Assembly (NCBI GenBank): GCA_947589675.1
Contig: CANQCI010000009.1
Coordinates: 1 to 47,287, forward strand
Reading direction: 5' to 3'
Length of the DNA stretch: 47,287 nucleotides
Origin: an uncultured Bacilli bacterium
Lineage (GTDB): Bacteria; Bacillota_I; Bacilli_A; RF39; UBA660
Shown piece after piece: positions 27,509 to 42,834 of this stretch (positions within the stretch are counted from its first letter, which is position 1; the number at the start of each line of letters is the position of its first letter). A program made the translations under genes and the position numbers. Below the pieces are notes generated by a model. That model made no database searches. It was given only the letters and a program-made list of their open reading frames with translations, and had not been told where the DNA came from.

Positions 27509-27543
27509 AAAGAAAGTTAAAACTTAATTTTTCCACTTTCTTT
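27509..27543 (-). terminator. Hairpin after the lipoprotein gene
   Basis: On the minus strand AAAGAAAGT (27543-27535) pairs with ACTTTCTTT (27517-27509), then T-rich sequence. It overlaps the lipoprotein stop codon. It probably ends or attenuates the upstream T4SS transcript. Confidence 0.55.
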
Positions 27544-28246
27544 ATTCCTCTTTTTCTTTATTATAATTTCCTTTTTTTAAATAAGATACAACTATAATAA
27601 CAATAATTAAAATAATAAAGGCTAATATAAATATTAAATATTTATTTTTTTCAATAACCGGATTTGTAGGATTATTATTGCTACTATTTTGAGTTTGTTG
27701 ATTCTCTTTTTTTAATTTAAATGTTACTTGAATATTTTTATCATGATAGTTATCTCGATTTACATGCCAAGCATAGGTATTACCATTAGTCATATCAGCA
27801 TTAGTATTTTTAATTTCATAAAAATCATTATTAAAAGTTAAATTAATCGTAACATCATCTACTAAAGTATAATAATCTAAACAGGAAAAGTAACTAGAAG
27901 TATTTAATAAATATTCTCCATTATATACTTTATCAATTGTAAAACTATCTAAACAGGTATTGGCAATTGTCGAGTTACTAAATTGGGAAAAGGGAAATTG
28001 AAAATTATAACTTACTTCATCACCATTTGCTTGCATATTATAATAATTTATTCCCTCAATCTTAATGTTTTCTTCACTAGCTCCTTGGTCAGTTATATAA
28101 GCTGGTGTATAAATCGGGGTATATTCCGAACCTTTAGTAAGCATCGTCTCTATAACTTTATCATCATCAAAATAAGCATTATATTGGACTGTACAACCAC
28201 TTAATAGGAAAATAATGCCAATTAATATTATCAATTTACCCTTCAT
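27542..28246 (-). CDS. T4SS-linked lipoprotein with C-terminal membrane anchor
   Basis: The 234-residue protein begins with a lipoprotein signal peptide ending LLSGC, so Cys18 is the likely lipidated residue. About 170 external residues include several Cys, Tyr and Asn; a low-complexity Asn/Gln stretch and one C-terminal transmembrane helix with a basic cytoplasmic end follow. It is anchored at both ends. It lies ten bases after the wall-enzyme gene and ahead of virD4. Staphylococcal conjugation clusters also have a lipoprotein near this position (as I recall, TraH of pSK41), but homology is unproven. Confidence 0.78.
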   Translation of the reverse strand: MKGKLIILIGIIFLLSGCTVQYNAYFDDDKVIETMLTKGSEYTPIYTPAYITDQGASEENIKIEGINYYNMQANGDEVSYNFQFPFSQFSNSTIANTCLDSFTIDKVYNGEYLLNTSSYFSCLDYYTLVDDVTINLTFNNDFYEIKNTNADMTNGNTYAWHVNRDNYHDKNIQVTFKLKKENQQTQNSSNNNPTNPVIEKNKYLIFILAFIILIIVIIVVSYLKKGNYNKEKEE

Positions 28247-28256
28247 TCTTTCGCTC

Positions 28257-30770
28257 CTAACTTGTTAAAGTATTTACAATATAGTTGTAAATATCTCCAT
28301 AAGTTTTCATATTATAATGAATACCATCTTTAGCTATACTATAATTTATTTTATCATATGTATCCAAATACCGAATATTACTTTTGCCACTGCTATTAAT
28401 TAATTCTATCACCCGATTATTATAAGCTTTAATGGCATCGATTGATACACTAGCTCCTTCATTAACCGGATTAACAGAAACAATATAGAAAGTTTTAGAT
28501 GGATTTGCATCGGCAACTTTTTTAAATTCTTCAAAATATTTATCCGCTACAATTATAGCTCCATCGGTACTTTGACCAACTAAATCATTAACTCCCATCA
28601 AAATAAGAATCGTGTTTTTACTAGTTGTATTAATTTGATTTATTTGCTTAGTAAACCATGAATAACTAGCTCCAACCTTGGCAACACAAGAATTAGTATT
28701 ACAAGAGTTAGTCTTTTCACAAAATTGAGCTGCGGTACATACCCCGACAGTTCGGCTATCACCCACAAAATATAAATCATTTTTCGTAATAATTCGATCT
28801 TTAGTTGGCTCGGCATTATTTTGACTAGGCATGGTCGATGGTCCTGTATAACCATCTAAATAACCATTTCGATAAGTTGTCACAAACTCTTCCATAGAAG
28901 CAAAATTATGTTTATGTTGAGCATACCAATTAGTCATATCAACGACTTTATTACTACTGCTATTAAAGTCAACCGTACTTATTTTGGTACCTTGACTACC
29001 GGATGAAGCATGAGCTACATAATATTTTTTAGCGTTATCATCAACCCCCACAATAAACATGATGTGTCCCTCTTTCCACATTAAGTCGCCAGGATTACCC
29101 ACTCGTGTTCCATTTAAACTTTTTTGAGTACCAATTTGTCCAAAGGCATTAGCACCTAAAACAGAGACATCAAAACCTGCATTGTGTAACACCCAAGCAA
29201 CAAAGCCTGAACAATCTGGTCCATATTTTAAATATGAATAACTCCCATAATGAAATGTCCCATCACTACGATTAGAAATTCTTGTTCCCCATTCTGGGTC
29301 AACCCCATAAAAAGACGTTGCTAAATGATTTAAATTTTGCCCGCTTGCTAAACTTGGAATAGTCCCTCCATGTTGACCGCTCATTGTGTAAGGAATACGC
29401 ACATGGTAGTTTTGATATAATCCCCCAACTAAAGAGACAGCTGCGGCAATAGCTCCTTCCCTTGTTCCATAACCAGCACTAGCGATATTTTCCAAGATAT
29501 ATTCATTAAATTCTTGAACTGATGTATTCTTATTTTGCAAGAAAGTTCTTAAATTAGTACTAATAATATCATTTGTTCCATTACTGGTTTCCGTTGTATA
29601 ATTTAAAGTAATATTACTTGTGAAATTAACATTTTCATAAATAGAATAAATAGTAACATTATCTAAATAAAAATTAATTAATTGATTAAAATCATAATTT
29701 TCTTGTGTTGCTAAATAATAAGCACCATATTGGGAAATTCCATAACCATGATTGTTATAACACATCTTACCAACTGATATACTTTTATTAATATATGACA
29801 TTAAACCACTTTTAGTCTGAGCCCAACTCTTAGGGATTTTTTGGATTCTTTCCACCCCATTGTCAGCACTTCCATAGCCAATATGATAATAATCATTATC
29901 TTGTCCCCGATAACAAGCAGCATCATAATGCACAGTCATAAGTTCATTATTTCGTCCAATAACTAAGCCATAAGTAGCATCAGCTGCTTGCCTAATAGGA
30001 CTTGATTCACTAGTTACTTTAGCCAGAGTTTCTTTATCAAAGGTAAAAGCCTGCCGACGAGCTGAACCCTCGATTGTACATGAAGATTTATCAATTGATT
30101 TAAGCCCAAAACTACGGGCAGCTACACTAAATAATTTTAATACATCTGGAGCATCACTAAAGCCACCAACCTCAGCTGCTACTACCCCAGGAATATATTC
30201 TGTTTCAAAATCTAACTCAGCTGTATAGGTTCCTGTTTTAGGATTATAAACTTTTACCTTTTCGCAAAAATCACCAATATTTAAATAAGTATAACCACTT
30301 AACCCTAATTGGGTATTACCAAATTCAAATGGATCACTATTACTTTCATTTAAAAATAAAGCAAAAACAATCAATATTAATAATATAACTGGTAAAAACG
30401 GTAACAAAAAAGATAATTTAAAAACAAATTTAGCTTTTTTTATTTCCTTTAACTTTTTATAACGACTTTTTAGTTCTTTCTCAGCTTGTTGTTTTTTATT
30501 TTGTTTATTAATTCGATTTTGTAAATTAATCAATTTATTATTTTTTTGTGTCTCTTCTTCTTGCATTTTAGCTAGAGCTTTGTTATTTTCCGATTTTTCT
30601 TCTAACTGATTGTCATTGTTTTCCTTTTCTTCTTTTTCATTATCATTAGTCATGGAAAAATTTCCTAATCTTCGATTTATTCGTTCATTAGGATCATAAA
30701 GCAATTTATTTTTTTTATTATTTAATAAATTATTTCTTGGTACTTTATTATTTTTTTCCACATCTAACAC
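28257..30770 (-). CDS. Three-domain cell-wall enzyme of the T4SS: SpoIID + NlpC/P60 + SGNH
   Basis: The 837-residue protein has a charged cytoplasmic N-terminus (1-115, coiled-coil-like) and one membrane helix (about 118-141). Three external domains follow. Residues 170-380 are SpoIID-like: YIPGVVAAEVGGF with E200, then HGYGISQYGAYYLA. SpoIID is a lytic transglycosylase. Residues 430-620 are NlpC/P60-like with Cys520 in YGPDCSGFVAW, His569 in GHIMFIVG and His587. Residues 665-837 are an SGNH hydrolase with GDS (670-672), GVND (726-729) and D815-x-x-H818. It occupies the VirB1/TraG slot and could open glycan, peptide and acetyl bonds. It starts eight bases after virB4. Confidence 0.88.
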   Translation of the reverse strand: MLDVEKNNKVPRNNLLNNKKNKLLYDPNERINRRLGNFSMTNDNEKEEKENNDNQLEEKSENNKALAKMQEEETQKNNKLINLQNRINKQNKKQQAEKELKSRYKKLKEIKKAKFVFKLSFLLPFLPVILLILIVFALFLNESNSDPFEFGNTQLGLSGYTYLNIGDFCEKVKVYNPKTGTYTAELDFETEYIPGVVAAEVGGFSDAPDVLKLFSVAARSFGLKSIDKSSCTIEGSARRQAFTFDKETLAKVTSESSPIRQAADATYGLVIGRNNELMTVHYDAACYRGQDNDYYHIGYGSADNGVERIQKIPKSWAQTKSGLMSYINKSISVGKMCYNNHGYGISQYGAYYLATQENYDFNQLINFYLDNVTIYSIYENVNFTSNITLNYTTETSNGTNDIISTNLRTFLQNKNTSVQEFNEYILENIASAGYGTREGAIAAAVSLVGGLYQNYHVRIPYTMSGQHGGTIPSLASGQNLNHLATSFYGVDPEWGTRISNRSDGTFHYGSYSYLKYGPDCSGFVAWVLHNAGFDVSVLGANAFGQIGTQKSLNGTRVGNPGDLMWKEGHIMFIVGVDDNAKKYYVAHASSGSQGTKISTVDFNSSSNKVVDMTNWYAQHKHNFASMEEFVTTYRNGYLDGYTGPSTMPSQNNAEPTKDRIITKNDLYFVGDSRTVGVCTAAQFCEKTNSCNTNSCVAKVGASYSWFTKQINQINTTSKNTILILMGVNDLVGQSTDGAIIVADKYFEEFKKVADANPSKTFYIVSVNPVNEGASVSIDAIKAYNNRVIELINSSGKSNIRYLDTYDKINYSIAKDGIHYNMKTYGDIYNYIVNTLTS

Positions 30771-30778
30771 CTAATTTT

Positions 30779-32563
30779 CTATAGACCACCGCCAACCCCA
30801 AATGAGTCTAATTCTTCTTGGGTAACAACAATTTGAATTTGCATTCTTCTATTACCACAAATAAATAAGGCATAACCTTGATTATAATATTTAATACTTT
30901 CTTTTTCATTTTCATTTAAATCAATTAATTTTGCTAAATCTTCAACCGCTTGTTTCCGTAAATTCATAACTAGATAATAAGCCGCATTATCAAATATAGC
31001 TTTGCCATGGGTGATAATATTTGGAGCAGCGAAATCAGTAGGTTGTTGCGTAATGATAATTGTTCCCGTGTTATATTTTCGACTTCTTCTTTGGATTTGG
31101 GCTAAAAACTCAGCCCCTAATTCATTATGATTTGATAATAAAACATGGGCTTCATCAACCATCATAACTGTATTAATTTCTTTATCTAAGCATAGACCCC
31201 AAGCATACTTTAAAACATTGAAAAATAAAGCATTTTTAATATTATCATCACTATTCATTAATTCTTTAATATTAAAAACAATAAAATCACTATTAATTTT
31301 TAACGTTGTATGTCCGGTAAAATAATAACGTAATTCTTTTACTAAAGGTCTTATTTTTAATTCTAGCCTTTCCATGACATCTCGTTCATGGGTAGCATCA
31401 GTCATTGATAAAAGTCTTCCTTTAATCGTCGCATAGACATCATCAAAGGTTGGATAATCAGCGCTAGTTAAAGTAGTATAATCCGTATTATAATCTATCT
31501 TATAACGTTTATAAGTATCTTGAACTACTTCACTAAACATCGTTAACACATCATCTTCAATACTTGGCGAATAATATTTCATAAAAGCTTTTAATTGTTG
31601 CAAAGTTCTTGTTAAAACGGTATAACCTAAACCCTCAGCTATTTCTTCTTCATCGGCATCGATAACAATCTCTAAGGGATTAATCATCCCAAATTCGCCA
31701 CCTTTACCCAAATCAAGGAAATCTCCACCTAGACTAAAAGCCATATCTTGAAGCTCTCCTTCGGGATCGACACAAACCACTTTTAAACCATTACGAATAT
31801 GGGTTCGAAGCAAGAGTTTAGCAGCTGTTGATTTCCCACTTCCGGAAGTTCCCAGTAAAATAATGTTTGCATTATTCCGATTATTTTCTTTTTTAATTTG
31901 ATATAAAAATTGATTAAATAAAATTACCCCGCCGGAAAAGTCTACGCCAAATAAAGTCGATGCTCCAGGATCTTTAATACTATCAAAGATGAAAGGATAC
32001 ATTGCCGATACGGTAACAGATGGAATTGGGGTTCCAATTCTTTGTTCAATATCTTGGGGTGGGAATATTGGTAAAATAGATTTTAGTACTTTTTCTTGTT
32101 CAAACATTAAAGCAATAGCCCGCATCCCCAAGGCATCAAGATAACTCCGAGTTTGAATTTTTCTTAATTCCAACTCTTCCTTGGAATCAGCAACAATCAT
32201 TAAATGCATTTGAAAATCAAATATCCGAGCTTGCGTTGAAGCTAACATTTGAATAAATTGTTCTAGCGATTCATAGTCTTGTCTTATTTTTTCTTGCATT
32301 GTTTGATCACGTTCTGTTTGATAACGAGTCTTTAAATCAGCTATTTCTTTATTTAACATTTTTTGTAAAATAGCAAAAGGAATCGGAATATGCTTAATAG
32401 CTACCTTTACTCCTTTAATACTAGTTAAATCAGACAAATAGCCTGGATAAATATTCCTTGGATATGACACCACTGTTAAAATAGTAGCATATTTTCCACT
32501 TATCAAAAATTCTGTCGGTTTAAATTCTATCCCTTTTGGGGCAATTTCACTTTTCAATGCCAT
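30779..32563 (-). CDS. VirB4-type secretion ATPase (main part)
   Basis: The 594-residue protein matches the body of VirB4/TraE ATPases: a substrate-binding N-terminal region and then the RecA-like motor. Walker A is GTSGSGKS (238-245), Walker B is VMMVDEAH, and IIITQQPTDF comes close to the C-terminus. VirB4 powers pilus assembly and export at the inner face of the membrane. The usual first 150-200 residues are absent here and encoded by the gene just upstream; its stop codon and this ATG are one base apart, under a GGAGGTG site. The pair would total about 782 residues, normal for VirB4. Confidence 0.93.
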   Translation of the reverse strand: MALKSEIAPKGIEFKPTEFLISGKYATILTVVSYPRNIYPGYLSDLTSIKGVKVAIKHIPIPFAILQKMLNKEIADLKTRYQTERDQTMQEKIRQDYESLEQFIQMLASTQARIFDFQMHLMIVADSKEELELRKIQTRSYLDALGMRAIALMFEQEKVLKSILPIFPPQDIEQRIGTPIPSVTVSAMYPFIFDSIKDPGASTLFGVDFSGGVILFNQFLYQIKKENNRNNANIILLGTSGSGKSTAAKLLLRTHIRNGLKVVCVDPEGELQDMAFSLGGDFLDLGKGGEFGMINPLEIVIDADEEEIAEGLGYTVLTRTLQQLKAFMKYYSPSIEDDVLTMFSEVVQDTYKRYKIDYNTDYTTLTSADYPTFDDVYATIKGRLLSMTDATHERDVMERLELKIRPLVKELRYYFTGHTTLKINSDFIVFNIKELMNSDDNIKNALFFNVLKYAWGLCLDKEINTVMMVDEAHVLLSNHNELGAEFLAQIQRRSRKYNTGTIIITQQPTDFAAPNIITHGKAIFDNAAYYLVMNLRKQAVEDLAKLIDLNENEKESIKYYNQGYALFICGNRRMQIQIVVTQEELDSFGVGGGL

Positions 32564-32564
32564 A

Positions 32565-33131
32565 TTACATTACACCTCCAAAAGTTATTTGTTCTCCCCC
32601 ATTTAAAAAGTTATCAAGAATCATTCGCAAATCATTATTTGATGTTTGGGTTGATTGAAGACCCGCAGTGGCTAAACCACTTATTAAACCATGCAATTTT
32701 TTTTGAACAAGTTCCATTCTTTTTTCTTTAAATAAAATATAGTATTCTGTATCAACTACATTGTATTCCGCACTCATAAACATATTAGCTTTATTAATAT
32801 CTTGCATAATAAGTTTACGAATAGCTCCTTCTTGAGCATTATTATACATTAATTGTAATTGAGATAAATAAACATCAATATCAACTGGACGATCAGCAAT
32901 AAGAAGCCAAAAATCATAGTCTATTGAGTTATATAAATTCCGCAGATTATAAATTGTGGCATTTTGGGAGCCTTCATCTAAAATGAAAATATTTTTAGGC
33001 ATTATCTTAACACCCGTTACAAAATAACCATTATCAAGTTGTATCATCCCATTTAAAATTTGCTTAATTGGTAACCAATCTTCCGTATAATTGCCACTGG
33101 GAATTTTGGCATTACTATTCAGTTTCGTCAT
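32565..33131 (-). CDS. VirB4 N-terminal-domain protein (split VirB4)
   Basis: The 188-residue protein has WLPIKQILNGMIQLDNGYFVTGVKI near its start, the kind of opening seen in Gram-positive VirB4/TraE proteins and in their small TrsD/TraD-like partners. It lacks ATPase motifs. It overlaps the prgI gene upstream by 17 bases and ends one base before the virB4 ATG. No frameshift fusing the two is apparent, and each has its own start and ribosome site. It is more likely a stable split than a mutation. It probably binds VirB4 and PrgI at the membrane. Confidence 0.75.
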   Translation of the reverse strand: MTKLNSNAKIPSGNYTEDWLPIKQILNGMIQLDNGYFVTGVKIMPKNIFILDEGSQNATIYNLRNLYNSIDYDFWLLIADRPVDIDVYLSQLQLMYNNAQEGAIRKLIMQDINKANMFMSAEYNVVDTEYYILFKEKRMELVQKKLHGLISGLATAGLQSTQTSNNDLRMILDNFLNGGEQITFGGVM

Positions 33132-33426
33132 TATAAATACACCATCCTCTCCAACGATATCTTTTCGGATTTAATATATAAGTTACTATATTGGTAATTA
33201 ACTGTAATACATTATGATAATACAAAACCGGTGTTACCAAAAAGCCAGTTATCAAAGCTGGTAATAAAATTATAATTAGTTCCCCCATTGAAGCATTCTG
33301 AAATATTATCAACATTAGTATTGTTATACTACATCCACTTCCAAATAACGCTAAATCAATGGGAGTAAAAAAGCCTAGTATCAATTGTGATTTTTTCGTA
33401 TTAGCTGGTATTAAATATCGATTCAT
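33115..33426 (-). CDS. PrgI-family (VirB3-like) membrane protein
   Basis: The 103-residue protein begins MNRYLIPANTKKSQLILGFF, has two adjacent membrane helices (about 20-72), and ends with a segment rich in Arg and Trp (NPKRYRWRGW). This is the PrgI pattern found before virB4 in Gram-positive conjugative elements, where it takes the place of VirB3. It overlaps the next gene by 17 bases. Confidence 0.85.
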   Translation of the reverse strand: MNRYLIPANTKKSQLILGFFTPIDLALFGSGCSITILMLIIFQNASMGELIIILLPALITGFLVTPVLYYHNVLQLITNIVTYILNPKRYRWRGWCIYNDETE

Positions 33427-33451: not shown

Positions 33452-35638
33452 TTAATGACCACCGCCATTATTGTTATTATTTCTATTTTGATTTGCTTGT
33501 TGGCGAGATAATCTTTCAATCTCAGCATTAATATCAATATTTCTTTGATTAACACTATCAACTAAAGTTCCCATATCATCGTAATTATTAACCACATTAG
33601 TTGTATTAATTCGACCTCTTTCATCAATATGTTCCTGCGTATTTAACGAAGCATTTAAAGAATTAATCCGTGGTTGATTTTCCCGAACTAAATTTTGAAT
33701 ATTTTCGCGATCACTATTTAATTTTGACATTCTTTGAAGATCACCAGTACCTAAATTAATTCCAAAACTTTGAATATTTTGAACTCCTTCCCGTCCATTA
33801 TATCCTTGTTGTTTAATATATCTTTTTAATCTTCTTTCAGCATCTTGTTTTTGAGATTCAATATGAGCTAAATATCTTGCAAAATCTGCTTCATTATTTA
33901 TTTGTACTTGATGTCCTGCAAAATCGTGTAATGGTCCAGCAGCACGAGCTTGTTGAAAACTCATACCTTTATACATATTAACTAAATTTTCCATTGTTGA
34001 TAAGGATTCAGCATTTTGGTTTCCTGTTGCTTGTCGCATAATTCGTTCATTATCCTTAATACTAGACTTTTCTATTAATTCTTTAGCTGTTTTATCAGAA
34101 CTATCATCTATTTGGATTATAGTTTTATAAAATTCTTGTTCATCTTTATATTGTTCATACGTTCTATTTAATCCAGCCCAATTGCCCAATCTTGTGACTG
34201 CATCTTGGGCATGACCTTGCACTGAACCAACAAAACCGCCAATAATTGGGATATCATCCCGTCGATGAGAAGCAACATAATTTGCCCGATTAGCTCGTGC
34301 TTGCGTTGTATGCTGAATAGCTGTTCGAGTAGCATTTTGAAATTCACGAACATTTTTTACATTACGGTTTTGCCATGCCCCGCGAACAGTACCGGCTCCA
34401 ACTCCCGCAGCAGTTGATCTTAAAATATTCCAAATACGGCCTCCGGCATTTTGTCCGTGAGTTGCCCGATACGTAGCTGTGGCATTTTGAACCCCAGATG
34501 TTATTCCAGCCCCAATGGCACCAGCCCCGATAGCTCCTACACCCAAAGCTGTTCGTAACACTCCACCCTCGGTAGATAATTCAATCCCAAATAAATCTTT
34601 TAATAATTTTGGTACTTGACGAACAAAGAGAATTATTCCTATTATTAATAATACTAAAGTTATTGATCTTTGAGTCGAGGTTAAATTACTTAATCCCCCA
34701 GTCACATCAAAAATATTACCAAATTTACTTACTACTAATGTAATTAAATATATTCCTAAATACATAGCAGCAATTCTGACGAAAACATCTAAGAAATTAC
34801 CTATTACCTGTTTAACCCAAATATCAAAGGCTTTTTTCTTATCCCCAGGAATTATTCGACATATCACAGCAACTGGAGCAATTATTTGATAAAATACTAA
34901 TTTTACAACCCGAACAGCTAAATCCATGGTATAGCCAATTATAACAAAAAGTAAGACTACCCCAGCAACAGTGGAAACAATTAACATATAATTTATTTCG
35001 TCATCGTCTACTGCTTCACTAAAATTTGAAAAAAGGGAAAAAGACTCGCCATTATAAACCGCTTGATAAGCCTCCGCTAAATTGGAAGCTCGACTTGATG
35101 AACCAGCATCAATTAGAATATCAGCAGAACACGTTGCTAAATCTTGATTAGCTTGGATACAGGTATCAGATTCTAAATTGGGTAAAAAGAAAGATTGAAA
35201 AGTATAAAAAGCCATGGTATTACCGCCATTTTTTTCAATATTTTCGATATCAGTTACCCCAGTTCGATTCAAAATAATTTTAGGAATTATATTCGAATTT
35301 AAAATAGCATTTTGCAGATTAAAAGCTACACTAAAAACAGTGGGTAAAACAGCAATAATAACTAAAGATATAACCACATTTTTTATAATATTGGGAGCTG
35401 TTTTTTCATCTTTCTTCGAATCATCAGGATTAACAACCGCCTTAAGCAAAGAATAAGCTAAAACAAATAGCATTATCACGCCTAACACTAAATAAATTCG
35501 TCCAATAATTGAATTATAATCATCAGCATCAAAAATATTTATTTTAGCTAAAGCCAAAAATATTTCATAAACCCAGCGAATTAAATTATATATAACCCCA
35601 TCTATATGTAATAATAAAGCATAAATTAATTTTAACAT
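33452..35638 (-). CDS. VirB6/TrbL-like polytopic channel protein
   Basis: The 728-residue protein has about seven membrane helices in the first 350 residues. A loop of about 100 residues between helices 3 and 4 has two Cys (in SDTCIQANQDLATC). A long soluble C-terminal half (360-728) follows. It begins with Gly/Ala-rich sequence and continues as polar, Asn/Gln/Arg-rich, probably coiled-coil stretches ending NRNNNNNGGGH. Topology and position (after the VirB2 candidate, before prgI) fit VirB6/TrbL proteins, which form the inner-membrane channel base. Ten bases separate it from the upstream gene. Confidence 0.83.
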   Translation of the reverse strand: MLKLIYALLLHIDGVIYNLIRWVYEIFLALAKINIFDADDYNSIIGRIYLVLGVIMLFVLAYSLLKAVVNPDDSKKDEKTAPNIIKNVVISLVIIAVLPTVFSVAFNLQNAILNSNIIPKIILNRTGVTDIENIEKNGGNTMAFYTFQSFFLPNLESDTCIQANQDLATCSADILIDAGSSSRASNLAEAYQAVYNGESFSLFSNFSEAVDDDEINYMLIVSTVAGVVLLFVIIGYTMDLAVRVVKLVFYQIIAPVAVICRIIPGDKKKAFDIWVKQVIGNFLDVFVRIAAMYLGIYLITLVVSKFGNIFDVTGGLSNLTSTQRSITLVLLIIGIILFVRQVPKLLKDLFGIELSTEGGVLRTALGVGAIGAGAIGAGITSGVQNATATYRATHGQNAGGRIWNILRSTAAGVGAGTVRGAWQNRNVKNVREFQNATRTAIQHTTQARANRANYVASHRRDDIPIIGGFVGSVQGHAQDAVTRLGNWAGLNRTYEQYKDEQEFYKTIIQIDDSSDKTAKELIEKSSIKDNERIMRQATGNQNAESLSTMENLVNMYKGMSFQQARAAGPLHDFAGHQVQINNEADFARYLAHIESQKQDAERRLKRYIKQQGYNGREGVQNIQSFGINLGTGDLQRMSKLNSDRENIQNLVRENQPRINSLNASLNTQEHIDERGRINTTNVVNNYDDMGTLVDSVNQRNIDINAEIERLSRQQANQNRNNNNNGGGH

Positions 35639-35648
35639 TATTCTTCAC

Positions 35649-36140
35649 CTACCCTATACCACAAGTACCATAGGCGCCAAGCATTGTCATTATTAAATCA
35701 ACTATAATTGGTAAAAAGAACATTAAAACAGTAAAAACAAACCGTTTAGCTGTTTTTAATCCAGCTTTTTTTATCGCTGCTTTATCTTCTTCTATAATAG
35801 CTTTAAGAAAATCAACAGTACTTAATACTAATAAAGCAATTATGGCAATATATTTCATAATATTTAATATCCATTGTAGCCAATAAGCTAAGTCTTTTTT
35901 CTCAGGGTCATTAGGATCACCTAAAAGAGCACTACAATTTAAGTTACTACTATTTTCATAAGCTAATTTAACTATTTTATTTTGATTATTATCATTACTA
36001 TTAATAACTATTTGAGGTTGATATGTATTAACTTGTGCTAAGTCATTTTCTTGGGGTAGAGCTATAACTTCTTTATTAAACATTAAAAACATTCCTATAA
36101 AAATGACAATGAAACTAAAATAATGTAGTATCTTGTTCAT
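35649..36140 (-). CDS. Candidate VirB2-like pilin / small T4SS membrane protein
   Basis: The 163-residue protein has an N-terminal signal peptide (cleavage probably after VIALP), about 60 polar external residues with a Cys, and then two hydrophobic helices (about 95-115 and 137-157). A short basic loop (EEDKAAIKKAGLKTAKR) separates the helices. A signal peptide plus two helices with a basic turn is the VirB2/TrbC pilin layout, though the extra polar segment is longer than usual. It is first in the T4SS transcript. Assignment rests on topology and position only. Confidence 0.6.
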   Translation of the reverse strand: MNKILHYFSFIVIFIGMFLMFNKEVIALPQENDLAQVNTYQPQIVINSNDNNQNKIVKLAYENSSNLNCSALLGDPNDPEKKDLAYWLQWILNIMKYIAIIALLVLSTVDFLKAIIEEDKAAIKKAGLKTAKRFVFTVLMFFLPIIVDLIMTMLGAYGTCGIG

Positions 36141-37703: not shown

Positions 37704-40514
37704 TTAAACAGCTATGTACGTAAGTCTTATAGTATGTTTATAATACGAATAATCTTCTAAACAACTATATTTACATTGTTTATTAACTAAAGTACCCTCA
37801 CTACATGATAAACAACTGCTACCGCTTAAAGTCCCAGATGAACATGTATAACCATGAGAACCATCACAATCAGCACGATAGCTATGAAATGTACATATAG
37901 CTCGACCTTGGGTAGGTATCCCCGTCACCTTTCCAGTTCCCGTGCAAGATTGATTTTCAGCTGACTTAAGCATTTTATAAGTTTTAGTATAATGCTCCTT
38001 ACATGATACGGATTCCGTTTGTCCGTATGGATAATAACAACTTGTTGTTTTACCACCAGAACATGTACAATCATATTTAAATACTTTTCCATCTTTTGTA
38101 TAATCATCACCATAGCAATACCCATTGCTTTCGCGATGTCCACTCTCGCAAACACATTTTGCTTTAGCCGGTTTAGATTTTGGCGGATCATAGCAAGTTC
38201 CATCACGTTGCCCTTCATAAATGGTTCCTCCAGTTACAGTATAATAATAACGATCATTAGAAAATGATTCACTGGAAATATATCCTCCTCCATAGGAAAT
38301 CGAAGAACTCACTATTTTTCTAATTCCACTTAAATATTTAGAATTACTGTAAGAACGTGAACTAGTTTCGCCTGTAGAAATATCAACTGTTTTTTGAACA
38401 CCTAAGTTACTAACACTAATACTTTTACAATCTTTATTGCCAGCTTTATCCTTAACACAGAAATAGTAAGTTTTGGATGTCCCGCTTGGTGGAGAAGATA
38501 AAGTTTGACTTTGCGTTATACTTACAGTTTCAGAAGTACTTCTCCAACTACTCGGATTACTTGTTGTGGAAAAAGCATAAGCAACTATATGAGCTTTATT
38601 ATCTCTTGCTGAACCGGTTAAAGTTAGACTAGTTACATAATCAGTTGTATTTTTAGAAATACTTACTGAATCTATAACTCGGTCAATATTAGTAACATTA
38701 TATTCTCTTTTGCCAACATTACCTTTATTATCTCTAACCCAAAAGTAATATTTACCATTTGAGGTTACATCTTTAGTTACCGTAATACTATTTCTAGCAC
38801 TGACTTTTGTCCAACCACCACTTGGCATACTCGCACTAGTTGAGATTTGATATTCCGTTAAATTAGTTCCGGTAGCTCTTCCTGTTAGTCTTACACTTTG
38901 AGTATAAGCAGTCGTATTAGCTGTAAAACTCATGGTATAACCTTTATTAATACATCTTTGGATATCGGATAACGCAATTGTACAACAAACCTCAGTCGCC
39001 TTGGTACCTATTTTTCTTATCGTATTATTCCCCAATTTATCAACAGCTTTAACCCAAAAATTATAATCGGTTCCGCATTCTCCTTTGATAGTTCGATTAG
39101 TACTAGTTATTTGGGTATCTTTTGGCGTTGTTTTATCATCTTTAGTTTTAATAGCATAATAATATACACTAACTGGGTTTGAAATATCCTTAAATACCGC
39201 AGGAGTTATGGTAAATGTTTCATCATTTATTGATATGGCTCCACCGGATACATACTCTGGTCCCTCACGGTCAATATTGGTTATTTGAATAGTCGCATGC
39301 GGTTCATAATTTCCTAATTTATCTTTAACATAAAAATTATAAACATCATTTGCCGTAACTTTTAATGTATAGGTTACTTGTTTATTTGTAGGTCCACCGG
39401 AAATCTTTTTCCAATCGCTAGCTTTGGGGGCATTATTCTTTGTGGTAAACGCATAGTACTCTAAACCTGATTTTCGGTCAATAGCTTTCCCCGTTAAAGT
39501 TAATTCTCTCGTGTAAGCACTTGTACTCGATGTTAAGGTTATATCTCCAGGTTCAACCGCATTACTATCAATATTATCAACCACAGATATATAAGGACTG
39601 GCTGATATATTACCGACATTATCTACCACACATATTCCATAAGTTCCAGCTTGAATCTTGGCTTTAGCTTTATTATTAGTTACTGTGGTTTTATATAATG
39701 ATTTATCTTGAGGACATGACTTTAAATCAGGTGCTAAATATAATCCTTTGACACCCGAGCCATTAAAATCACTGACGGTTATTTCAATATTTTTTTCTGT
39801 TGCCCAACCAGAGTCCGACTTTACGCCTGAGACTATTGGTGCTTCTTTATCAACTGCAACAATCCCTTGTCCATTTGATAAAGCCCCATCCATCGTGACC
39901 TCAAAACGATAAACACTTTTGGAGGCTTTCGCAACATTAGTTATAATCATTGGTTCATTTCCAGTTTGTCCTGAGGTACTTAACCATGAATATTGATATT
40001 CTGGATTATTTATAATCTCCCCAGTTTTATTATGTTTAATTGCTAACGTAATATTATCGGCAAACCATTTATTATTATCCACTTTTTCACAGCCGGTTCC
40101 GGTGTACTGACAGATACTATAATCAGTTTCTAACTCATAACCTCCACAGCTACCATCTTTATTGCGATATTCTTTATCGATAAATTTCGAAACATATTCT
40201 CCATTTACAAATTCACTTTTAATGGTATAACAATTAAGCGAAGTTTTATCAATTGGATTATAAATATCGGTTTCATCATCAGGTAAAGTTTCGCCCTCTT
40301 TAATTAAGTCTTCAATACTTACTAAAGTTATCCCTGTTCTTTTGGCATAATTTGCCGCCTTCGATTCTAAGTAAGATATTAAATTATTGTAGTCCTGCTT
40401 TAAAGAATCATCCTTTATCGACATATAGGACACCGCAGAAATCGCAATTATTAAGCCTAAAACTGTCAATGTAGCTAGTAATTCCACTAGCGTAAAACCT
40501 TTTTTCTTCTTCAT
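37704..40514 (-). CDS. Giant prepilin-like surface protein with Ig-like repeats and Cys-rich tail
   Basis: The 936-residue protein begins MKKKKGFTLVELLATLTVLG: a type IV prepilin leader, cleavage expected after Gly6, Phe7 as +1 and Glu11 as the +5 glutamate. A pilin-like stalk of about 80 residues follows. From about 200 to 715 several repeats of about 90 residues each end with variants of YYFWVRDNKGN (YGICVVDNVGN, YNFYVKDKLGN, YNFWVKAVDKLGN, YYFCVKDKAGN), like bacterial Ig-like modules. The last 170 residues hold roughly twenty cysteines. Ordinary pseudopilins are 100-200 residues, so this is an adhesin or sensor hung on a pilin stem. No pilus motor or peptidase gene is in the window. Confidence 0.85.
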   Translation of the reverse strand: MKKKKGFTLVELLATLTVLGLIIAISAVSYMSIKDDSLKQDYNNLISYLESKAANYAKRTGITLVSIEDLIKEGETLPDDETDIYNPIDKTSLNCYTIKSEFVNGEYVSKFIDKEYRNKDGSCGGYELETDYSICQYTGTGCEKVDNNKWFADNITLAIKHNKTGEIINNPEYQYSWLSTSGQTGNEPMIITNVAKASKSVYRFEVTMDGALSNGQGIVAVDKEAPIVSGVKSDSGWATEKNIEITVSDFNGSGVKGLYLAPDLKSCPQDKSLYKTTVTNNKAKAKIQAGTYGICVVDNVGNISASPYISVVDNIDSNAVEPGDITLTSSTSAYTRELTLTGKAIDRKSGLEYYAFTTKNNAPKASDWKKISGGPTNKQVTYTLKVTANDVYNFYVKDKLGNYEPHATIQITNIDREGPEYVSGGAISINDETFTITPAVFKDISNPVSVYYYAIKTKDDKTTPKDTQITSTNRTIKGECGTDYNFWVKAVDKLGNNTIRKIGTKATEVCCTIALSDIQRCINKGYTMSFTANTTAYTQSVRLTGRATGTNLTEYQISTSASMPSGGWTKVSARNSITVTKDVTSNGKYYFWVRDNKGNVGKREYNVTNIDRVIDSVSISKNTTDYVTSLTLTGSARDNKAHIVAYAFSTTSNPSSWRSTSETVSITQSQTLSSPPSGTSKTYYFCVKDKAGNKDCKSISVSNLGVQKTVDISTGETSSRSYSNSKYLSGIRKIVSSSISYGGGYISSESFSNDRYYYTVTGGTIYEGQRDGTCYDPPKSKPAKAKCVCESGHRESNGYCYGDDYTKDGKVFKYDCTCSGGKTTSCYYPYGQTESVSCKEHYTKTYKMLKSAENQSCTGTGKVTGIPTQGRAICTFHSYRADCDGSHGYTCSSGTLSGSSCLSCSEGTLVNKQCKYSCLEDYSYYKHTIRLTYIAV

Positions 40515-40658: not shown

Positions 40659-40732
40659 AGGGGATTAGTTAAATGGTATAATAGGAGTCTCCAAAACTTT
40701 AGTTGGGAGTTCGATTCTCTCATCCCCTGCCA
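40659..40732 (+). tRNA. tRNA-Trp (anticodon CCA)
   Basis: The cloverleaf folds completely: acceptor AGGGGAT/ATCCCCT, a four-pair D stem and a five-pair anticodon stem. The loop is CTCCAAA, giving anticodon CCA at 40691-40693. The T arm has TTCGATT, the discriminator is G, and CCA is encoded. The CCA anticodon reads UGG only, agreeing with TGA being a stop in this genome. Confidence 0.95.
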
Positions 40733-41925: not shown

Positions 41926-42834
41926 GAAGTTTATGATTCTAATGTTGATTCATTTTGAACAAATTCAGCTACTTCATTATTTATAGGATTATCTTTATAT
42001 TTGTTTGAAAACGCTAAAGAAGACGAAATAAATATCAGTAGTTTATTAAATTTAGTAGCAGATTTTGACGCATTATCAGAACAAGTTAAAACATATAGTA
42101 AAAATTCAGCTATATATATTAATTTAGCTAACATAATTTTAGCACCAAATGATACCAAAGGCGGCATCTTAACTGTTTTCTTACAAAATATGAAATTGTT
42201 TGCCTCAAGAGAAACATTATTAAAAATGCTATCGGCAACTGATTTTAAGATTGAAAATATCCAAAAAGCCAAAACAGCTTTATTTATAATAAGCAATAGT
42301 AAACCTGTTTCAAGAAGATTAATTTCTTTAATAGTAGAAGAATGTTATTTTGGAGCTACTTTAACTAACGATAAAACTCGTAGATTAAGTATTATTTTAG
42401 ATGATTTTGAAAATTTAATTCCCATTAAAGAATTTAGTAATAAACTAACACTTTCCAGAAGTCAAAATATAAAATATAGTATTTATATAAGAAGTTTATT
42501 AGAATTAAGAAATACTTATGGTACAGAGGGAACGGAAATATTAAAAATGTTATTTGAAAATATAATATTTTTAATGGCAAATGATATTGAAACATTAGAA
42601 AATATTTCTAAATTATGTGGAAATCAACAAACAGAAAAAGAGATTGTGCCTTTAATTTCAGTAGAAGAATTAAAATTACTAGACACTTTTGAAGCTGTCA
42701 TTTTAATACCTCGAATTAATCCTATTAAAACCAAACTATTACCTGATTACAAAATAGATTGGCAATTTAGTGAAGAAAAAGTAGCTATGAAAGAAATAGT
42801 AAAACACGAGATTAAAACATATAATTTAAAATAA
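41926..42834 (+). pseudogene. Decayed C-terminal half of a second virD4
   Basis: From 41926 the translation EVYDSNVDSF-stop-TNSATS aligns with NILYDPSNKNDPFWEKSAAD of the VirD4 at 25160-27409; the TGA falls exactly on the Trp codon. It then stays open for 277 codons from a TTG at 42001. It follows the paralogue through NDTKGGILTVFLQ, the Walker B region (now IILDDFENL for ILDEFANM) and IISVEELKLLDTFEAVIL-like segments. Walker A, the membrane helices and the acidic tail are absent. It is most simply a truncated relic, but the long clean frame leaves open a translated fragment. Confidence 0.75.

Follow-up and report, generated by a model that had tools for sequence, protein, structure and literature searches.

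What can a single protein with three different wall-active domains do within a type IV secretion system (T4SS)? The question is raised by an 837-aa ORF with a GTG start codon, encoded on the minus strand of the window, as the whole 47,287-nt stretch of DNA analysed here is called. An earlier reading made from the sequence alone had assigned to this ORF a SpoIID, an NlpC/P60 and an SGNH hydrolase domain, in that order, behind one membrane helix. The features of the protein and its surroundings are as follows.

28257..30770, minus strand: putative VirB1-type cell-wall hydrolase, 837 aa (profile matches; five same-domain homologues)
30408..30770, minus strand: its cytoplasmic N-terminal region, residues 1-121, disordered and partly helical (low pLDDT)
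30351..30407, minus strand: its single transmembrane helix, residues 122-140 (hydropathy)
29568..30305, minus strand: its SpoIID domain, residues 156-401, with E200 and HGYGISQYG (profiles, fold match)
28911..29450, minus strand: its NlpC/P60 domain, residues 441-620, with C520, H569 and, at the third position, H587 (profile, separate model)
28266..28790, minus strand: its SGNH hydrolase-fold domain, residues 661-835, with S672, N728, D815 and H818 (profile, fold match)
27542..28246, minus strand: partner gene, a lipobox (LSGC) protein with a C-terminal membrane helix
25160..27466, minus strand: VirD4-type coupling ATPase, CD1115 family (profile matches)
30779..32563, minus strand: VirB4 ATPase, motor part (profile matches)
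32565..33131, minus strand: VirB4, separate N-terminal part (profile match; same split in homologous loci)
33115..33426, minus strand: TcpE-like (VirB3-like) small membrane protein (sub-threshold match, E=3e-4)
33452..35638, minus strand: VirB6-like protein of the mycoplasma-ICE type whose N-terminal part is pilin-like (MMCAP2_0566 family, E=3e-16)
35649..36140, minus strand: small membrane protein, conserved in the T4SS cluster (related loci carry homologues in this position)

The virB4 motor gene lies 8 bases upstream of the hydrolase gene and the lipobox protein gene 10 bases downstream; beyond it come virD4 and the genes for a rhodanese-like and a VTT-domain protein. Further upstream are the genes for the VirB4 N-terminal part and the TcpE-like and VirB6-like proteins, which are matched by NCBIfam models from mycoplasma ICEs. 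The product was correctly read as a T4SS protein, its gene being located between virB4 and virD4 of a monoderm-type system. In keeping with membership in the VirB1-type hydrolases of monoderm T4SSs, VirB4 and VirD4 are encoded in the same cluster, and a membrane anchor is combined with predicted extracellular wall-hydrolase domains at residues 156-835; basic residues ahead of the helix indicate an N-in orientation.

Several other features of the region were noted. VirB4 is split into two genes (30779-33131, minus strand), with an identical split in the related loci examined. Homologues of the small membrane protein at 35649-36140 occur in some relatives as several consecutive copies before virB6 (L053 3-2771, L055 10731-16336, L064 3-2579), resembling a variable array. 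Immediately upstream of the T4SS cluster lies the gene (37704-40514, minus strand) for a 936-aa protein whose N-terminus carries a type IV prepilin signal; none of the 40 related loci examined had a homologue. A second VirD4-like frame, partial and on the plus strand (42001-42834), matches CD1115-type VirD4 in the middle and at the end; lying near a tRNA-Trp gene (40659-40732), it is possibly a remnant of another element.

Since the window protein on its own stays under the curated cut-offs (TIGR02669 SpoIID_LytB, E=3e-10; Lipase_GDSL_2, 2e-4; CHAP, 0.014), each domain was tested with profiles built from homologues. A phmmer search of the PDB with the full-length protein returned noise only. 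The same three domains are present in five homologues with 43-52% identity to the window protein; the SpoIID cut-off was crossed by homologues, and the Lipase_GDSL cut-off by one homologue. Against solved structures, the SpoIID homologue profile matched 4rwr (E=1e-26) and 5i1t (2e-21), the NlpC/P60 profile matched 8er5 (8e-8) as well as CwlO, CTn7-Orf16 and CTn1-Orf17 (Tn916-like), and the SGNH profile matched the sialate O-acetylesterase 6njc (1e-6) and PatB 8tlb (1.4e-5). VIA-align of an AlphaFold2 model of the protein (mean pLDDT 80, disordered N-terminus) matched residues 167-378 to the SpoIID structure 5i1t (Z 17.5) and residues 654-837 to SGNH proteins (Z about 17; OatA C-domain, Z 15.6). 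Since SGNH chains filled the structural match list of the full model, the NlpC/P60 domain was folded alone, and this model (pLDDT 97) had exclusively NlpC/P60 proteins as its top matches (Z up to 11.7). Pfam and NCBIfam searches of the window protein found no SLT and no M23 domain, and the segment with the marginal CHAP match has the NlpC/P60 fold. Profile searches of each segment and structure prediction, the check proposed along with the original assignment, therefore support all three domains, in the stated order after the helix.

The sequence-only reading also held that all catalytic residues are in place. For the key residues this is true of the window protein itself, where E200, H341, G342, S346 and Q347 of the SpoIID domain are all present, so that the fold and profile match of a SpoIID lytic transglycosylase are joined by the catalytic Glu and the HGxGxSQ motif. 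The NlpC/P60 domain has the fold and the Cys and His of its family, C520 and H569 being present in 42/42 NlpC domains, and H587 fits the third polar catalytic residue (His, Asn or Gln); among homologues that position is not conserved (H/E/Q = 19/21/2 in the 42 domains). In the SGNH domain S672, N728 and H818 are present in 18/18 domains, and D815, found in the window protein, is kept as Asp in 11/18. The window protein has Ser702 at the block II Gly, a position occupied by Gly in 16/18 domains.

The SGNH domain has the common fold of the OatA, PatB and Ape enzymes with Ser, Asn and His in place; unlike them, it is fused to hydrolases and has no membrane acyltransferase domain. As an alternative to an esterase, it might be an OatA- or PatB-like acyltransferase that acylates the wall near the T4SS and shields the edges of the lesion, with a donor from a separate membrane acyltransferase. 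PatB is among the best profile matches and the OatA C-domain matches by fold; Val or Ile precedes the catalytic Asn in 16/18 domains (Val in the window protein), a feature called invariant in OatA homologues (PMC6174289), and the host has one MBOAT and two acyltransferase-3 proteins without an SGNH domain of their own. However, sialate O-acetylesterases score equally or better, Val at that position may occur in esterases beyond the OatA comparison, the T4SS cluster contains no MBOAT or acyltransferase, and the MBOAT has its own neighbouring protein, which by eye may be its partner. Weighing these points, an acylating role is conceivable but doubtful. The MBOAT gene adjoins a gene whose product looks AlgX/AlgJ-like by eye (L171 4326-6888), a pair from which some envelope polymer of the host may be O-acylated.

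The contrast originally drawn with known T4SS hydrolases of Gram-positives agrees with a 2025 review, which names CHAP, SLT, MUR and LytM but makes no mention of SpoIID or SGNH (PMC12857230). PrgK (VirB1) of pCF10, of the DELTA class, likewise has a cytoplasmic N-terminus, one helix and three extracellular wall domains in a monoderm T4SS, but its domains are LytM, a muramidase (formerly SLT) and CHAP. TraG of pIP501, Orf14/CwlT of Tn916 and CTn-Orf16/17 of C. difficile are membrane-anchored and combine a glycan cutter with NlpC/P60 or CHAP, as here, and the NlpC/P60 domain of the window protein is related by profile to the C. difficile proteins; their glycan cutter, however, is SLT- or lysozyme-like, and they have no SGNH domain. 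With SpoIID, NlpC/P60 and SGNH in place of the SLT, muramidase, CHAP and LytM set, the window protein is a variant outside the ALPHA, BETA and DELTA T4SS hydrolase classes as described. Its SpoIID domain shares fold, catalytic Glu and HGxG(I/M)SQ motif with sporulation SpoIID and differs in that it shares a polypeptide, encoded in a T4SS operon, with other wall enzymes. Some polyvalent proteins encoded by mobile elements also contain SpoIID domains (PMC5512222), but these are proteins of a different kind.

Genome contigs were scanned for related loci with a VirB4 alignment; the window protein alone as query gave no match against genome contigs and viral contigs. In the slot between virB4 and virD4 at least ten domain arrangements were found, the three-domain form of the window being one. 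Those with SpoIID are SpoIID+NlpC, SpoIID+NlpC+SGNH (the window and five others), SpoIID+NlpC+Amidase_3 and SpoIID+M23, the Amidase_3 domain being added in two relatives and absent from the window protein. Other arrangements are SGNH+M23+phage-tail lysozyme, M23+phage-tail lysozyme, phage lysozyme with NlpC or CHAP, NlpC+SGNH, SGNH+NlpC, M23+GH73, and GH73-like with C39 or M15. Overall, SpoIID, phage-type lysozymes or GH73 are found together with NlpC/P60, M23, CHAP, C39, M15 or amidase, and SGNH is optional. On a VirB4 tree of 70 loci, the minimum number of changes was 12 for SGNH presence, 15 for NlpC and 18 for M23. A separate 328-aa SGNH gene lies within T4SS locus L070 (13011-13997), suggesting that another protein can also provide this function in trans.

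When active SpoIID was defined by the presence of E200 and HGxGxSQ, the 70 loci comprised 29 with active SpoIID alone, 37 with another glycosidase alone, 4 with neither and none with both. With the weakly identified GH73-like middle domain left out (Pfam Glucosaminidase, 0.002-0.06; PDB glucosaminidase, 0.09), the counts become 29, 25, 16 and 0. At least 11 switches between active SpoIID and another glycosidase were counted on the tree, and in 8 independent pairs on well-supported branches the two changed in opposite directions in a mean of 7.5 and in the same direction in none (median p=0.008). Loss of catalytic residues across homologues, which the first assignment had named as an observation that would speak against it, was not seen for the core residues of the NlpC/P60 and SGNH domains; 14 SpoIID domains, by contrast, are without the motifs, and 14/14 of these sit beside another glycosidase, in 8 cases a GH73-like domain alone. 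The M23+lysozyme forms retain a short remnant related to the SpoIID N-terminal part. The simplest reading of these patterns is that SpoIID would be the glycan cutter and decays once replaced by a lysozyme or glucosaminidase, and that, as far as activities can be predicted, the slot nearly always keeps one glycan cutter and one peptide cutter. Since active SpoIID occurs in just 2 of 30 loci selected by VirB4 alone, the window's type is a minority form; 40 of the fetched regions were selected by similarity to the window protein, and the sample is thus partly biased.

The type of partner protein changes along with the peptidase type of the hydrolase and tracks M23 (10 independent pairs, p=0.002), so that the two genes apparently move, or evolve, as a unit. 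Where the hydrolase has M23, a membrane-anchored protein of about 290 aa takes the place of the lipobox partner (L073 13901-14779 and 17 other loci). This protein has no Pfam or PDB relative, and an NTF2/VirB8-like identity suggested by eye was backed by neither database.

Retained but inactive domains raise the alternative that one domain alone is catalytic in cells while the others bind the wall or regulate. This is the situation reported for PrgK of pCF10, in which two of three predicted hydrolase domains had no measurable activity (PMC11323569), and the inactive SpoIID remnants kept in many relatives indicate that domains can be retained without catalysis. The key residues of the window protein are intact, however, and SpoIID retains its motifs precisely when another glycosidase is absent, as expected if SpoIID is catalytic; a single active domain is therefore considered unlikely.

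The related loci, labelled uncultured Bacilli, Tenericutes or Candidatus Caccenecus, probably place the host, with its genome of 1.46 Mb (95% complete), in the GTDB order RF39 of uncultured gut Bacilli. Most members of RF39 are predicted to have a cell wall with m-DAP peptidoglycan, and the order to be able to sporulate (PMC10868615); a diaminopimelate epimerase gene is located within the window. A canonical spoIID gene lies elsewhere in the host genome, beside spoIIQ, spoIIID and murA, making the T4SS SpoIID a second, divergent copy, and SpoIIP was not found in the host genome with PF07454. Within the order, 346 of 385 genomes, from 105 of 117 genera, encode VirB4, mostly as a single copy, which makes the T4SS a core chromosomal trait of the order. 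Among the matches listed, VirB4 identity is about 65-91% within the order and only 31-34% elsewhere in the class. The T4SS gene order, with the hydrolase gene between virB4 and virD4 and with the rhodanese and VTT neighbours, is common to many genera. No relaxase was found in the 95% complete host genome with the PF03432 or PF02486 profiles, and a PF01076 search gave no control signal. The hydrolase had no match in phages and one in plasmids, to SGNH only. A recently acquired integrative conjugative element, with the odd architecture as mobile-element noise, is very improbable: VirD4, VirB4 and VirB6 do resemble parts of conjugative elements, including mycoplasma ICE families, and in the vicinity there are a tRNA gene and another, partial VirD4, but the near-universal, mostly single-copy VirB4 with its conserved neighbours shows no scattered, identity-poor distribution, and the relaxase, phage and plasmid searches also speak against it.

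In the open library searched, no description of a near-universal T4SS in this order was found, and no relevant paper on SpoIID with NlpC and SGNH, on SpoIID with type IV secretion or on RF39 with type IV secretion. Relaxase-poor T4SSs of Patescibacteria have been described (PMC12102498); they are also monoderm-type, widespread in a reduced-genome group and mostly without relaxase, but belong to a different phylum, and VirB1 homologues there are mostly unlinked to virB4. A more far-reaching proposal, speculative and rather improbable, would make the core T4SS of this order a general contact machine instead of a conjugation system, with a two-gene wall-opening cassette, made up of hydrolase and partner, swapped to match changing target-cell walls; SpoIID-type enzymes would be one of several interchangeable glycan cutters in it, selected only while no lysozyme is present.

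Taken together, the domains found by profile and fold, the position between virB4 and virD4, the presence of VirB4 in 346/385 genomes, the mutual exclusion of glycosidases, the SpoIID remnants, the partner that tracks M23, the precedents and the walled host make it quite probable that the window protein serves a core chromosomal T4SS of monoderm type as its VirB1-type wall hydrolase, that its domains jointly open the wall locally for substrate transfer, and that the slot changes by domain exchange while almost always pairing one working glycan cutter with one peptide cutter. The helix is predicted to anchor the hydrolase beside the VirB4/VirB6/VirD4 channel with the enzyme domains outside. Judging from family, residues and substitution pattern, NlpC/P60 would cleave stem peptides and SpoIID the glycan strand as a lytic transglycosylase, with SpoIID degenerating after a lysozyme or glucosaminidase takes over. 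SGNH would most likely strip O-acyl groups that would stand in the way of the glycan cutter, such as those at MurNAc C6. Both lysozymes and lytic transglycosylases are blocked when MurNAc is O-acetylated at C6 (PMC6174289), so an SGNH de-O-acylase next to SpoIID makes chemical sense. The three activities together would open the wall locally for substrate transfer, and by analogy with PrgK, TraG and Orf14, the precedents for T4SS wall hydrolases (PMC12857230), the window protein probably does so.

Several points count against this reading. Canonical NlpC/P60 endopeptidases leave peptide stubs. C. difficile SpoIID cuts only denuded glycan, after amidase action (PMC6221140), and this need for denuded strands fits poorly with such stubs in a window protein without an amidase. 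In the SGNH domain, Ser replaces the Gly of block II, and the Asn is preceded by Val as in OatA. Finally, 8 of the 14 degenerate-SpoIID cases depend on the weakly supported GH73-like domain, and the sample is biased by similarity.

The architecture of the window protein is one of the states that a domain-swapping slot of a core T4SS can take, a larger pattern than the sequence-only reading had described, and this core T4SS with an exchangeable wall-opening cassette is a more interesting result than the VirB1-type hydrolase variant itself. The finding suggests that nearly all members of a large uncultured group of gut bacteria possess a T4SS. It extends the parts of T4SS wall openers by a sporulation-type lytic transglycosylase and an SGNH enzyme, as far as their activities are predicted, and a natural series of successive replacements, where a dead SpoIID remnant outlasts takeover by another glycosidase, argues that SpoIID is a glycan cutter outside sporulation. 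The question why Gram-positive T4SS hydrolases have several domains is thereby turned into one of testable domain swaps.
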